A DNA stretch of 64,000 nt from Oscillospiraceae bacterium (GTDB lineage Bacteria; Bacillota; Clostridia; Oscillospirales; JAAYOS01). Positions 14,988-57,857 of this stretch are shown piece after piece. The notes beneath the pieces were generated by a model that saw nothing but the letters and a program-made list of their open reading frames with translations, was not told the origin of the DNA and did not search any database. Numbering within the stretch: the stretch's first letter is position 1; every line of letters starts with the position of its first letter. The position numbers and the translations under genes are program-made. The DNA lies in assembly GCA_031264245.1 (NCBI GenBank), contig JAISEG010000005.1:186001-250000 (forward strand), in the 5' to 3' direction.

Positions 14988-15491
14988 TTTAAACCGCCAT
15001 TTCCTTAATAAATTTATTGTCATGGTTTCTTCACGGGAGTGACAATAGTGGAGGAACGGGAAGCTTCTTCTTATACCAAACCGTGCTCCGTCTCCCGTTT
15101 GATACAGTCTATGCGGCTGAGTCATATGTTGAAAGCAGGCGAAATATGATATAAAATAATACAATATTATTATTTTAAAATAAGTGTCTCCTTTCCGGAT
15201 TATATATGTCTCTTCCTCCGCTTTTTTTATTTTTAATATTATAATTTTTTGATATCTCCCACTTAGCTGACTCACGTAAAAAATTCATAAAATGTTCTTA
15301 TCTTTTGTCATTAAATATGGTATAATGTCCACAAGCGGACATTATACGCTGATTAGAATTCATATACCACTACGGCGCTCCGCGCCTGTGGTATAATGTC
15401 CACAAGCGGACATTATACGCTGATACGGCACTGCGTGCCTTTAGATAAATATGCCCCGACGTCCGCAAAATTTTTTACAAGGAGGGTTTTT
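14988..15491. other. Divergent intergenic region between the cotJ genes and the membrane protein gene
   Basis: About 500 bases. The left half (14988-15300) should carry the cotJ promoter on the minus strand, but no sigma-A-type box is clear, which would fit a sporulation sigma factor. The right half holds the promoter-like palindromic repeat at 15318-15452. I see no coding sequence. Confidence 0.5.
15318..15452 (+). repeat. Palindromic repeat with extended -10 boxes (two units)
   Basis: Two identical palindromes, TATAATGTCC/GGACATTATA, lie at 15321-15346 and 15392-15417, 71 bases apart, and each is preceded by TGG. Each is followed by CGCTGAT. After the second comes ACGGCACTGCGTGCCTTTAG and AATAT, a tail found again at 42.4 kb. 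The first six bases of each arm read TGGTATAAT, an extended -10 box pointing at the gene at 15492. Confidence 0.75.
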
Positions 15492-16874: not shown

Positions 16875-16892
16875 ACAAAAATGCCGCTTTAT

Positions 16893-16995
16893 TATAGTAA
16901 TTCCTCTTAGTATTGATTTGGTTTCCGCAGTTGAACTGTCCATATATGCGAGACTGCGGAAACCAACATTATCAATAGTTAGTGGAATTGCTATA
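16893..16995. repeat. 103-bp hairpin element (copy A)
   Basis: Terminal inverted repeats TATAGTAATTCC and GGAATTGCTATA extend inward to GGTTTCCGCAG/CTGCGGAAACC, so the whole unit folds on itself. The centre has CATATATGCG (16941-16950). A near-identical copy of the same length lies at 46522-46624. It separates cwlD from radA. Confidence 0.85.
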
Positions 16996-17058
16996 TAGTC
17001 AGTTACCCGTTTGTTAACCTACCATTACACGAGTATTACCGTCTGGAGGACAGGAAGC

Positions 17059-20361: not shown

Positions 20362-21464
20362 AGCGGTTCAGAACACACGGAACTGTCCTTTTGCTTCCAG
20401 TTCTAACGTTCGTTATGTTGTTTTCCTCATGTGCGGAATCGGATGTCTCGGACGGGGGAATCGCTCTTTCCGAGGCTGTAAGCGTAAGCTACGATACGGC
20501 GGTCGCGAAAAAGCGCAATATTGCCGAACTCAGCCAATATGAGGCGTATGTGTGCGTCAAAACGGAGGATGTGTGCTTTGAGGACGGCGTAGGAGCGCTG
20601 AACGAAATAAATGTGAGCATCGGGGATACTGTAAAGAAGGGCGAACTGCTCGCCTCGCTGGACACCGCCAAAACGCGGCAGTCGATCGACACCTCACGCG
20701 GCAGTCTCGATGCGCGGGTAAGGCGGCTGGAATACGACAAAACGCAGAAGCAGCTGGACATCGAAATTGCCATGACTGAGCTTGACGACCTCGAGACAAG
20801 CGGTCAGGATACGGAAATCGAGCAGAAAAAGCTGCTGATAAAAAAGCTTGAAGAGGAGCTTGGTTATATTGTACGGGCGGGCGATTTGGAGGTGTCCTTT
20901 ATGAAGGCACAGCTGGGTAAGCTCGAGGATTCCCTTCTCCATTCCGAAATCTACGCTCCCTTTGACGGCGAAATCGTAAACGTCTGCAATGTCCTGCCCG
21001 GCGGATGGATCTCGTCCAGCGTCGCCGTCGTCACCGTGGCCGACCCGACCGAGCTGTACGTCCGGTACGACGGAACGGACAGCATAAGCTCCTCGTATAT
21101 CTCAACCGCGCTTTTCAACGGCAAGGAATACGAGCTTATTTCACGCGAATATGACAGAACCGAATACATAGAGCTGGTTTTATCCGGGAAAAAACCGCCC
21201 GCTCTGTTCAGCTTTAAGGACGATGTGAGCGCCGATATTGAAGCCGGGGACTTTGTCGCTATACTGATCCAATACTCAAAGTCGGAAAACGCGCTTTCGG
21301 TTCCGTCAAATTCCGTCTATTACGACGGCGGCGTAAGCTATGTCTACATTGTCAGCGGCGGGGAAAAAATCTACACCAAGGTAGCCTGCGGACTGAGAAC
21401 CACCGCTTATACCGAGATACTTTCAGGGCTTACGGAAGGGGATGTTGTCTTTGTCAAGCAGTAA
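20358..21464 (+). CDS. HlyD/YknX-like adaptor lipoprotein 2
   Basis: 368 residues. The lipoprotein signal ends TFVMLFSSC. Order of parts: lipoyl-like half (GALNEINVSIGDTVKKGELLASLD), coiled coil (about 105-185), second lipoyl half (LLHSEIYAPFDGEIVNV), then beta-barrel and C-terminal domains ending GLTEGDVVFVKQ. It overlaps adaptor 1 by four bases. The three adaptors share architecture but little exact sequence, so the duplications are old. Confidence 0.82.
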   Translation: MKRFRTHGTVLLLPVLTFVMLFSSCAESDVSDGGIALSEAVSVSYDTAVAKKRNIAELSQYEAYVCVKTEDVCFEDGVGALNEINVSIGDTVKKGELLASLDTAKTRQSIDTSRGSLDARVRRLEYDKTQKQLDIEIAMTELDDLETSGQDTEIEQKKLLIKKLEEELGYIVRAGDLEVSFMKAQLGKLEDSLLHSEIYAPFDGEIVNVCNVLPGGWISSSVAVVTVADPTELYVRYDGTDSISSSYISTALFNGKEYELISREYDRTEYIELVLSGKKPPALFSFKDDVSADIEAGDFVAILIQYSKSENALSVPSNSVYYDGGVSYVYIVSGGEKIYTKVACGLRTTAYTEILSGLTEGDVVFVKQ

Positions 21465-21499
21465 CGCCAAATTGCGGCGCGCACTCAGATCTGTCGGCA

Positions 21500-21593
21500 A
21501 TAGACTTCTTGCAAAGCCTTCGGTTTTGTTCGCGGAAGTATTTAAAATGCTTCCGCCGCAAAACTCATTTTGTGAGTTTTGCAAGAAGTCTAT
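21500..21593. repeat. Inverted-repeat element inside the start of the third adaptor gene
   Basis: ATAGACTTCTTGCAAA (21500-21515) is the exact complement of 21578-21593. Two further stems lie inside: GCGGAAG/CTTCCGC near 21532-21556 and AAAACTCA/TGAGTTTT near 21560-21580. TTGCAAGAAGTCT recurs after the palindrome at 30062-30111. The right arm encodes residues Cys-Lys-Lys-Ser-Ile of the adaptor's signal peptide. Confidence 0.7.
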
Positions 21594-22692
21594 CGCTGTC
21601 GTTTTGCCGCTTCTCTTTCTATCCTTCGCCTCCTGCGGCGGAAGCGCCGCTTCAGGGGAAGAGGCTCTGCTGCTTCGGGAAATCGCCGGCGGCAAGCCTA
21701 CAAACCACAAAACAGCCACCGTAGCCCTGGGTACGCTGTCAAGAAAAACCAGCGGCGAAGGCGTCGCCTATTATCCAAAGAAGGACGCCCTGACCTGCCC
21801 CTTCGACAACGCCGTGCTGGGGAAGCTGAACGTCTCCAACAACACCACAGTAAAAAAGGGGGACATCATCGCCGAATTTGAAATTTCATACAGCGCGTCC
21901 GAGCTAAGCGAGCTGTATTCAAACCTGGAAATCATAAAAAAGCAGCATAACCTGCAAAAAGCGGGCTACATATCCGCCGCCGAAGCGGCGGAGGAGCGGC
22001 TTGAGAATATAAGCGCGCTCTATACCTCGGGCGGCGCGACGAAAAATGAGGTGAAGAAAGCGGAGCTTCTCCTCGAAAAGGCACGGCTTTCGTTGGATTA
22101 CTTCACCTATCAATACAACTTAACCGTCAGCGAACAGCAAAAGAAGATAGACAGCTTTGAGGCTTCTATCAAAAACAACGTCATATACGCGCCGTACGAC
22201 GGGGTTATAAGCGACCTCTCCTACCTGGTTCCGGGCGCCACCATCCCGCGCTCGACCTTTATTTGCAGCATTTATTCGAAGGAGGATATATGGCTGTCGG
22301 CGGCTCTGGATACGGCGAACGGTATGAGGTACAACAAGGACGTCGTTATCACCGTCACAAATCACGGCAAGACCTACACCGGAAGGATAGTTTCCGCGCC
22401 AAACATACGGGGGGAGACCACCGGGTACGTCACAATAATACCGGATGAAGCCTTCCAGTTCGACCCCGCCGACAGGATGAAGCGGATCACCGTATCCGCG
22501 CTGAGGTACGAACTAAACAACGTGCCTGTCCTTCCCTCCGCCGCCGTCAACAACGAGGACGGAAAGCGCTACGTATACCTCTTTGAGGACGGGATTGTAA
22601 AAAAGCGGTATGTAACCTGCGGAATCAATGATATCTCCAGCATACAGATTCTCGAAGGTCTTGAGCTCGGCGAGACTGTAATTATTTATTAG
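21547..22692 (+). CDS. HlyD/YknX-like adaptor lipoprotein 3
   Basis: 381 residues from ATG 21547. The start is uncertain: the frame is open from ATG 21442, and TTG 21451 has GGAAGGGG at good spacing but would put about 45 residues ahead of the signal peptide. The signal peptide (CKKSIAVVLPLLFLSFASC) has its basic n-region encoded by the right arm of an inverted-repeat element. The body matches the other two adaptors: lipoyl halves (GKLNVSNNTTVKKGDIIAEF and YAPYDGVISDLSYLVPG), a coiled coil (about 95-175), and the C-terminal GLELGETVIIY. It is followed by the permease after 12 bases. Confidence 0.78.
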   Translation: MLPPQNSFCEFCKKSIAVVLPLLFLSFASCGGSAASGEEALLLREIAGGKPTNHKTATVALGTLSRKTSGEGVAYYPKKDALTCPFDNAVLGKLNVSNNTTVKKGDIIAEFEISYSASELSELYSNLEIIKKQHNLQKAGYISAAEAAEERLENISALYTSGGATKNEVKKAELLLEKARLSLDYFTYQYNLTVSEQQKKIDSFEASIKNNVIYAPYDGVISDLSYLVPGATIPRSTFICSIYSKEDIWLSAALDTANGMRYNKDVVITVTNHGKTYTGRIVSAPNIRGETTGYVTIIPDEAFQFDPADRMKRITVSALRYELNNVPVLPSAAVNNEDGKRYVYLFEDGIVKKRYVTCGINDISSIQILEGLELGETVIIY

Positions 22693-30061: not shown

Positions 30062-30111
30062 TAAAAGAAGGTCTTATACTAAACCGCGGTTTAGTATAAG
30101 ACCTTCTTTTA
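30062..30111. terminator. Perfect 50-bp palindrome, bidirectional terminator
   Basis: Bases 30062-30086 are the exact complement of 30087-30111 with no loop at all. It separates the converging flavoprotein and clpE-like genes. An extra hairpin (CAGATTTCTTG with CAAGAAGTCTG, about 30113-30150) lies next to it on the clpE side. Confidence 0.88.
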
Positions 30112-30153
30112 ACAGATTTCTTGAAAAAATTTTATTTTTGCAAGAAGTCTGAT

Positions 30154-42389: not shown

Positions 42390-42505
42390 TATAATGATTG
42401 CAATGCAATCATTATATCATAGGCGTTTACGCCGTAATGGTATATTTATCTAAAGGCACGCAGTGCCGTATCAGCGTATAATAACCGCTTGCGGTTATTA
42501 TACCA
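42390..42505 (-). repeat. Palindromic repeat with extended -10 boxes (two units, reversed)
   Basis: Read on the minus strand: palindrome TATAATAACCG/CGGTTATTATA (42477-42502) preceded by TGG, the tail CGCTGATACGGCACTGCGTG and on to AATAT, then palindrome TATAATGATTGCA/TGCAATCATTATA (42390-42416) preceded by TGA. The tail is the same as at 15418-15452, but the palindrome arms differ and remain fully paired. The remaining leader (42343-42389 and 42506-42621) shows no other feature. Confidence 0.75.
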
Positions 42506-42621
42506 TAACTGGAAATAATGTAAAGCTAAATAGCCCATGCGGGAGAGGATGCCGGCGTCAGTTGGTGTAATTGCTGTAATATGGCTTTGAAAGCGGGAAA
42601 TAATTTTTATTAATTAACACT

Positions 42622-46368: not shown

Positions 46369-46521
46369 CACTTCAATTTTCTTGCAGATTCGAGGCTTAA
46401 AGCCCCTGTAAAGTTAAATGCTTTACAGTTTTGTATTCAGAAAGTAAATTGCCTTTACAGTGCCTAAACATGCTGGTACTCCCCGGTTTTCCGCCAAAGA
46501 AACCAGAGAGTATCCGCTCTT

Positions 46522-46624
46522 TATAGCAATTCCTCTTAATATTGATTTGGTTTCCGAGGTTGAGCCGTTCATATATGCGAGACTGCGGAAACCAACATTA
46601 TCAATAGTTAGTGGAATTGATATA
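46522..46624. repeat. 103-bp hairpin element (copy B)
   Basis: Nearly identical to 16893-16995, with the same length and termini (TATAGCAATTCC). Midpoint motif CATATATGCG at 46570-46579. Two changes in one arm (GGTTTCCGAGG) are not matched in the other, so this copy is slightly decayed. Confidence 0.85.
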
Positions 46625-46684
46625 TGCATCATATTTAATTTTTATTCATGCAATTATGCATGGGAGCTTACGTATAATCCCTGT

Positions 46685-46737
46685 ACGCAATATCTCCCGC
46701 GAGACCCGCCGGGCGGGTCTCGCGGGAGATATTGCGT
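46685..46737. terminator. Perfect 53-bp palindrome, bidirectional terminator
   Basis: A 26-base arm (46685-46710) is the exact complement of 46712-46737, with one central base. It ends on the first base of the ATPase stop codon (minus strand). The arms are rich in G and C in the middle (CCCGCGAGACCCGCC). Confidence 0.85.
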
Positions 46738-50450: not shown

Positions 50451-50498
50451 AAAGGGGCTGGTCGTAAGGATTTTAAAATCCTTACGACCAGCCCCTTT
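50451..50498. terminator. Perfect 48-bp palindrome terminator
   Basis: Bases 50451-50474 are exactly complementary to 50475-50498 without a loop. It follows the LplC-type stop by 31 bases. Confidence 0.88.
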
Positions 50499-57804: not shown

Positions 57805-57857
57805 CAAACAACTCTCGTTCTAAGCTCGTCTCAAGAGCTTAGAACGAGAGTTGTTTG
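57805..57857. terminator. Bidirectional terminator between glgP and nrdG
   Basis: A perfect 23-base stem (57805-57827 with 57835-57857) and a seven-base loop between converging genes. Confidence 0.88.

Follow-up and report, generated by a model that had tools for sequence, protein, structure and literature searches.

A palindromic MITE-like element of probable IS5/ISL2 type inserted in frame in the leader of a HlyD/MacA-like lipoprotein gene

A palindromic element of 90 bp forms leader codons of a membrane-fusion lipoprotein gene in the 64,000-nucleotide stretch of Oscillospiraceae DNA analysed here (the window). In the reading that we hold to be highly probable, a non-autonomous transposable element (MITE) of IS5/ISL2 type inserted in this leader, the frame was kept, and the insertion is tolerated without rescuing the export signal. 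We directly observed the repeat nature of the element, its structure, the target rule followed by its relatives, orthologues that lack the insert and the open frame, and these observations are laid out below together with the other explanations that they bear upon.

The preliminary description of this DNA had reported a 94-base element with perfect 16-base ends, and such an element is indeed present. ATAGACTTCTTGCAAA can be read directly at 21500-21515 (left terminal inverted repeat, + strand) and its exact reverse complement at 21578-21593 (right terminal inverted repeat, - strand), and an inverted-repeat search could extend the arms of the 94-mer to 19 nt at 95%. While the inverted ends are real, the extent had to be revised: because of the target-site rule of the relatives, the mobile unit is taken as the 90 bp at 21502-21591 (+ strand), a MITE-like palindrome of the form AGACTTC..GAAGTCT. 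Its left flank, AAT (21499-21501), fits the ANT rule, and its right flank, ATC (21592-21594), is not an intact copy of the left one. We also considered that a longer unit at this copy might be flanked by a 6-bp duplication, CTGTCG, and dropped the idea, since it is missing from the other copies. Folding of the + strand from 21496 to 21597 (102 nt) predicted a three-armed cloverleaf, in which a closing stem carries arm 1 (21511-21529, + strand, alignment columns 10-28), arm 2 (21531-21557, + strand), holding a weak Shine-Dalgarno-like GGAAG and ATG 21547, and arm 3 (21558-21582, + strand, alignment columns 57-81). The energy was -52.5 kcal/mol with a z score of -8.67, and none of 200 shuffles folded as well. 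Both this fold and the two further genomic copies found by BLAST show that the element is not due to chance.

We also compared the cloverleaf form across genomes. Four copies of the window's genome, five of the MAG Lab288P3bin192 and one of Lab288P3bin47, both MAGs belonging to the Oscillospiraceae, make a set of ten, each 90 bp long and alike in fold, and the six cloverleaves of the two MAGs all have an ATT or AAT duplication. In the alignment of these ten copies, which are few and related to each other, 98.0% of cells are paired and both sides have changed at 16 of the 40 pairs (8 of 12 in arm 2); neither value was reached in 500 shuffles of the alignment, and sliding the partners made pairing fall to 34-47%. 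That the closing stem does not vary is partly an effect of sampling, as exact ends served to find six of the copies and resemblance to the window copy three more. A Nostoc element of 88 bp with three loops (L101) was kept out of the set, its arms being poor and differing. Either selection or arm-templated repair could keep the arms of a palindrome paired, and the data do not separate the two; the 90-bp length and the covarying arms across Oscillospiraceae-type genomes raise the question of whether selection for transposition or RNA structure, or such repair, has maintained them. The strong three-arm fold and the compensatory changes among copies, together with the fact that most family copies of the window's genome lie between genes, would also suit a functional RNA fold in the gap separating adaptor genes 2 and 3, involved in processing, stability or translation control, the codon reading being incidental. 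We consider this rather unlikely, since both strands fold well (-44.8 kcal/mol and z -7.83 for the opposite one), as expected of a palindrome, copies are found in every gene orientation, and Rfam gave no match in the window at gathering score.

That the element is a dispersed repeat, as had been proposed, was confirmed in the window's own genome, an assembly of 1.20 Mb that is 47% complete. BLAST recovered two further full copies (95% and 94% identity, E 4e-37 and 3e-36), and a diverged full copy (L027), weak by BLAST (66%, E 0.4), was accepted as a member of the family because of its ends, length and fold. Moreover, solo hairpins with exact TAGACTTC..GAAGTCTA ends are present at six loci, and more have variant ends. 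A covariance model (R1), whose 12 rows represent 11 solo-hairpin loci of this genome (one was entered twice), gave 60 matches in it, corresponding to 31 loci, 20 of them outside the model. Including L027, the family therefore totals 32 loci, of which 4 are cloverleaves and the other 28 are solo hairpins 39-51 nt long. The halves of the cloverleaf each match R1 (E 2.5e-6 and 3.4e-4 in the window copy), and these separate matches suggest that the cloverleaf is made of two adjacent solo hairpins. Three family loci are inside the window by R1, at 21501-21592, at 30113-30151 (a degenerate solo hairpin, - strand, E 1.9e-5) and at 46689-46733 (a diverged solo hairpin, E 6.3e-5). The second contains TTTTGCAAGAAGTCT at 30136-30150, a match that is not significant by BLAST alone (E 0.4), so the earlier remark that the ending of the element recurs at about 30137-30149 holds within a hairpin recognised by the model.

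Outside this genome, the element was searched for by BLAST in 58 relatives, none of them from the same genus, with one partial match (46 bases, 80%, E 8.5e-4, G041) that we took as chance; R1 gave one weak match in 29 relatives (E 0.001, G009) among the 150 candidates scored per genome. Viral contigs gave no pattern match, plasmids no match, and phages seven records covering at most 37% of the query at E 0.09 or worse, also taken as chance.

Other repeats are present in the window. A second palindromic repeat, of TGGTATAATGTCC..GGACATTATACG type, has identical direct copies at 15318-15353 and 15389-15424 and diverged inverted matches at 42439-42507. A direct repeat of 105 nt with 92% identity is found at 16892-16996 and 46521-46625, and its part 16971-16998 also matches 46519-46546 in inverted orientation. 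Perfect palindromes with arms of 23-26 bp are located at 30062-30111, 46685-46737, 50451-50498 and 57805-57857, the second of which overlaps the diverged family copy at 46689-46733.

The solo palindromes, being short and mostly intergenic, could recall REP/REPIN-type elements moved by a REP-associated tyrosine transposase (RAYT), and the window's genome does contain two RAYT-type Y1_Tnp (PF01797) matches, one over and one under the family cut-off (C4:163274-163543, L353; C3:63836-64123, L354). In this incomplete genome, though, no hairpin-model match at E 1 or better is found within about 1.5 kb of either gene. REPs are not known to have near-perfect inverted ends or ANT duplications, and we regard a RAYT origin as highly improbable.

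The ends AGACTTCTTG..CAAGAAGTCT are found in many phyla. Searching genome_contigs for the pattern TAGACTTCTTG-N60..90-CAAGAAGTCTA gave at least 118 stretches, for a chance expectation of about 0.5 match as estimated with uniform bases. Among the matches listed, the hosts include Cytophagales, many cyanobacteria, Campylobacterales, Psychrobacter, a Rickettsia, Chloroflexi and Oscillospiraceae. From the matches listed, 112 elements were extracted by script, 8 of the 118 loci yielding none as their elements were outside the length bounds; since exact ends were the criterion for choosing these elements, part of the conservation seen at the ends follows from the selection itself. Among the matches listed, AGACTTC..GAAGTCT is bordered by the same 3 bp on both sides in 94 of the 112 elements, and in every one of these 94 the triplet is ANT (an earlier subset had given 65 of 76). 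Permuting the right flanks in 2000 trials gave a mean of 42.6 identical and a maximum of 57, permuted flanks being often identical because the flanks are AT-biased. One Cytophagales MAG provides 46 of the 112, and without it 52 of the remaining 66 from the matches listed still have identical flanks, against a permuted mean of 21.8 and a maximum of 32. For bacterial IS5 elements, PMC4482050 names ANT as the target triplet.

The duplication that is so frequent in these relatives and is found in all six MAG cloverleaves is scarce in the window's genome, and this counts against an IS5/ISL2-type origin. By reading, just 5 of the 32 family loci have identical ANT flanks, and the three close copies show AAT/ATC (the window copy), AAT/ATC and ATT/ATC, with no intact duplication. 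Several solo hairpins have flanks that are complementary, not repeated. Endings of the GTCT|ATCG or AAGTAT|ATCG type, different from an ANT duplication, were seen at five of the 32 loci (L324, L339, L340, L341 and L343).

We then consider how such an element may have moved. Its ends and duplicated ANT target, as in IS5-family ISL2-like insertion sequences, suggest a MITE that an IS5/ISL2-type transposase would have mobilised in trans. Genes for DDE_Tnp_4 (PF13359) transposases matched in 7 of 12 and then in 13 of 23 genomes searched. In the Oscillospiraceae MAG Lab288P3bin192, also home to five cloverleaf MITEs, a DDE_Tnp_4 insertion sequence of 909 bp (L218) has AGACCTCTTCGGAAATTA ends, an ATT duplication and a transposase in two frames, and in the Pyrinomonadaceae MAG of MITE L119 another one (L291) has AGACCTCTTGCAAAA ends and ATT/AGT flanks. 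In these two genomes, insertion sequence and MITE have similar, not identical, ends. The Okeania insertion sequences of this type end in AGACTTGTCGC and have AAT and ATT duplications, and other DDE_Tnp_4 insertion sequences in the genomes searched have other ends or flanks, for example AGAACTCTTGC with ATA/ATA in Nostoc (L223). An insertion sequence with exactly AGACTTCTTGC ends was not found in the genomes searched, no pair of AGACTTCTTGC-like ends surrounds the DUF4096 (PF13340) genes present in 5 of 15 genomes, and none of the papers listed as containing this string is, by its title, about insertion sequences. Pairs of near-exact AGACTTCTTGC ends at insertion-sequence length (245 loci) gave several candidates, all rejected, none having identical 3-bp flanks. 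Two further results count against the proposed mobilisation: 5 of the 12 and 10 of the 23 genomes have no DDE_Tnp_4 gene, and all of these except the window's genome carry the MITE. The window's genome, 47% complete, itself gave no match to PF13359, PF13340 (DUF4096) or PF01609 (DDE_Tnp_1).

The gene that received the element (21442-22692, + strand; Pfam HlyD_3, E 8.8e-05) encodes a HlyD/MacA-like membrane-fusion lipoprotein and is the third of three adaptor genes, with an FtsX permease gene and two ABC ATPase genes next in order. As had been described, the other two adaptors have normal starts (ATG 19249 and ATG 20358), passing directly to a basic n-region, a hydrophobic stretch and Cys. In the third one, the Shine-Dalgarno sequence GGAAGGGG (21434-21441, + strand), recognised by orthologue comparison and duplex energy, precedes the likely old start TTG 21451, or the other candidate ATG 21442, and the old basic n-region LSSSNAKLRRALRSVG (21451-21498, + strand). 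After the element come the hydrophobic region and the lipobox Cys, AVVLPLLFLSFASC (21595-21636, + strand). Clear orthologues were found in 8 of 9 same-family genomes among the 58 relatives searched, at 32-45% identity and in other genera, the same-family genome G002 having no orthologue of this adaptor. With starts read from the sequence, all eight frames open where the gene overlaps its upstream neighbour (GGGGATG), and three codons later comes a second ATG or TTG in frame. A short n-region with basic residues is then joined directly to the hydrophobic region and Cys, and in G001 one more candidate start lies immediately ahead of its hydrophobic region. The insert is absent from all eight. 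The closest orthologue (G003, 45%) reads LSSSKLTRVLAGAALLVFSAGC, where the window reads LSSSNAKLRRALRSVGN, the element, one Ile and then AVVLPLLFLSFASC. An exact empty site was not seen among these orthologues, the nearest being 32-45% identical and from other genera, which counts against the insertion reading, and the cloverleaf-bearing MAG G059 as well as G066 have no third-adaptor lipoprotein, so that they offer no closer site for comparison.

We propose that a copy of the MITE entered the leader codons, separating the old basic n-region from the hydrophobic core. The reading frame is kept because the 90-bp element plus a 3-bp duplication makes 93 bp, and in its stop-free phase the insertion would have left the gene open with 30 additional codons (31 with the duplicated triplet), reading RLLAK..EFCKKS. 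The open frame is not informative on use and needed no selection, since the window copy is stop-free in 3 of its 6 phases. As had been noted, the right end encodes Cys-Lys-Lys-Ser-Ile (TGC AAG AAG TCT ATC) in the frame of the gene. Most likely the protein is still exported, since the hydrophobic core and the lipobox are untouched and the last codons of the element, CKKS, happen to be basic; between the n- and h-regions of a signal peptide, 30 extra residues are perhaps tolerable.

The preliminary description had gone further, suggesting that the insertion was recruited and thereby preserved the export signal. In this reading the gene would start at ATG 21547, and the element would supply the start, the ribosome site and the basic n-region. 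This ATG is indeed inside the element and in frame, GGAAG lies 8 bases upstream, and the resulting leader, MLPPQNSFCEFCKKSIAVVLPLLFLSFASC, is plausible by eye, while a start at TTG 21451 would give an n-region of 47 residues. An n-region of 47 residues is unusual. As a start, however, ATG 21547 has the weaker site: the Shine-Dalgarno duplex, computed with a generic anti-Shine-Dalgarno sequence, amounts to -4.1 kcal/mol, against -11.5 at TTG 21451 and -10.3 at ATG 21442, although this measure is not decisive because the start of the first adaptor scores only +0.8. Moreover, a hairpin arm contains both ATG 21547 and its site, with a mean unpaired value of 0.21 that differs moderately from those of TTG 21451 (0.38-0.44) and ATG 21442 (0.24-0.39). 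The ORF has also stayed open in its left half, where the old start region, its Shine-Dalgarno site and the old basic n-region are intact. The bases of the element do form leader codons, but the claim that the export signal was kept by recruitment finds no support in the eight insert-free orthologues, all of which have a basic n-region, nor in the window gene itself, which retains a matching start region and the basic residues SSSNAKLRRALR ahead of the insert. We therefore regard a recruited start as unlikely and favour use of the old start (TTG 21451 or ATG 21442), as its sequence features suggest. A bolder form, in which the cloverleaf would be a frame-neutral, self-maintaining module for inserting peptides (90/93 bp, with arms complementary across species), its middle hairpin now being the start and n-region of the lipoprotein and adaptor export depending on transposon-born, hairpin-gated codons, appears to us quite unlikely. 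A tolerated insertion in the signal-peptide region is a likelier account than recruitment, which is unproven.

We also asked whether similar elements are read in frame elsewhere. Among the matches listed, 8 of the 112 elements are inside an ORF of at least 120 aa with 30 nt on each side, and one of the eight ORFs has a Pfam match. This is an AAA_15 ATPase gene (L188, 2517-4601, E 3.6e-19), in which an in-frame element near the C-terminus reads RLLAK..EFCKKS and is accompanied by an ACT duplication; its best plasmid homologue aligns up to residue 632 only, just before the insert. The source of this locus is a MAG titled Helicobacter cetorum. In the window's genome, a coarse test placed 8 of the 32 copies inside ORFs of at least 70 aa, and reading these by eye left two convincing cases, the window copy and L348, at the C-terminal end of a 505-aa ORF. 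In-frame insertion of such elements thus occurs and is not the rule, most copies being intergenic.

Concerning known systems, the ends of the element resemble those of IS5/ISL2-like insertion sequences such as ISDge6, of the AGAC(C/T)TCTTGC.AAA type, a 3-bp ANT duplication is seen in relatives, and some MITE-bearing genomes have DDE_Tnp_4 insertion sequences with similar ends. The window element differs in lacking a transposase, in being three-armed and only 90 bp long, and in having no intact duplication, and no matching insertion sequence was found in its own incomplete genome. For ISDge6, PMC7674623 gives ends of AGACCtGCTGCGAAA.. and a 3-nt repeat of TCA, not ANT; together with the non-ANT flanks of some DDE_Tnp_4 relatives, this counts against an IS5/ISL2-type assignment. 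MITEAba12, as described in PMC6382973, is mobilised in trans by a co-resident insertion sequence and is likewise short, without a transposase gene and with ends shared with an insertion sequence, but its ends are different and its duplications are 9 bp long. QMITE1 of Coxiella burnetii, according to PMC10969869, is one family with copies down to 39 bp, comparable by description with the 39-51 nt solo hairpins of the window's genome, although its full length is about 400 bp. The MITEs of Anabaena sp. 90 are also small, palindromic and mostly intergenic, but their 15 intragenic copies disrupted ORFs according to PMC3542288, whereas in the third adaptor the frame stays open. Our search of the literature on MITEs with ISL2/IS5 or in signal peptides found no report of this element among the papers listed, which is not proof of absence.

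The window insertion is, on the reading favoured here, a clear example of MITE DNA that has become coding sequence outside Rickettsia. By analogy, its closest precedent is the Rickettsia palindromic elements (RPEs), described in PMC10969869 as palindromes that sit in frame within protein genes of unrelated kinds and serve there as codons. The likeness drawn here lies in the in-frame insertion in protein genes, in our case the third adaptor and L188; RPEs are about 150 bp long, and the family of the window element is mostly intergenic in its genome.
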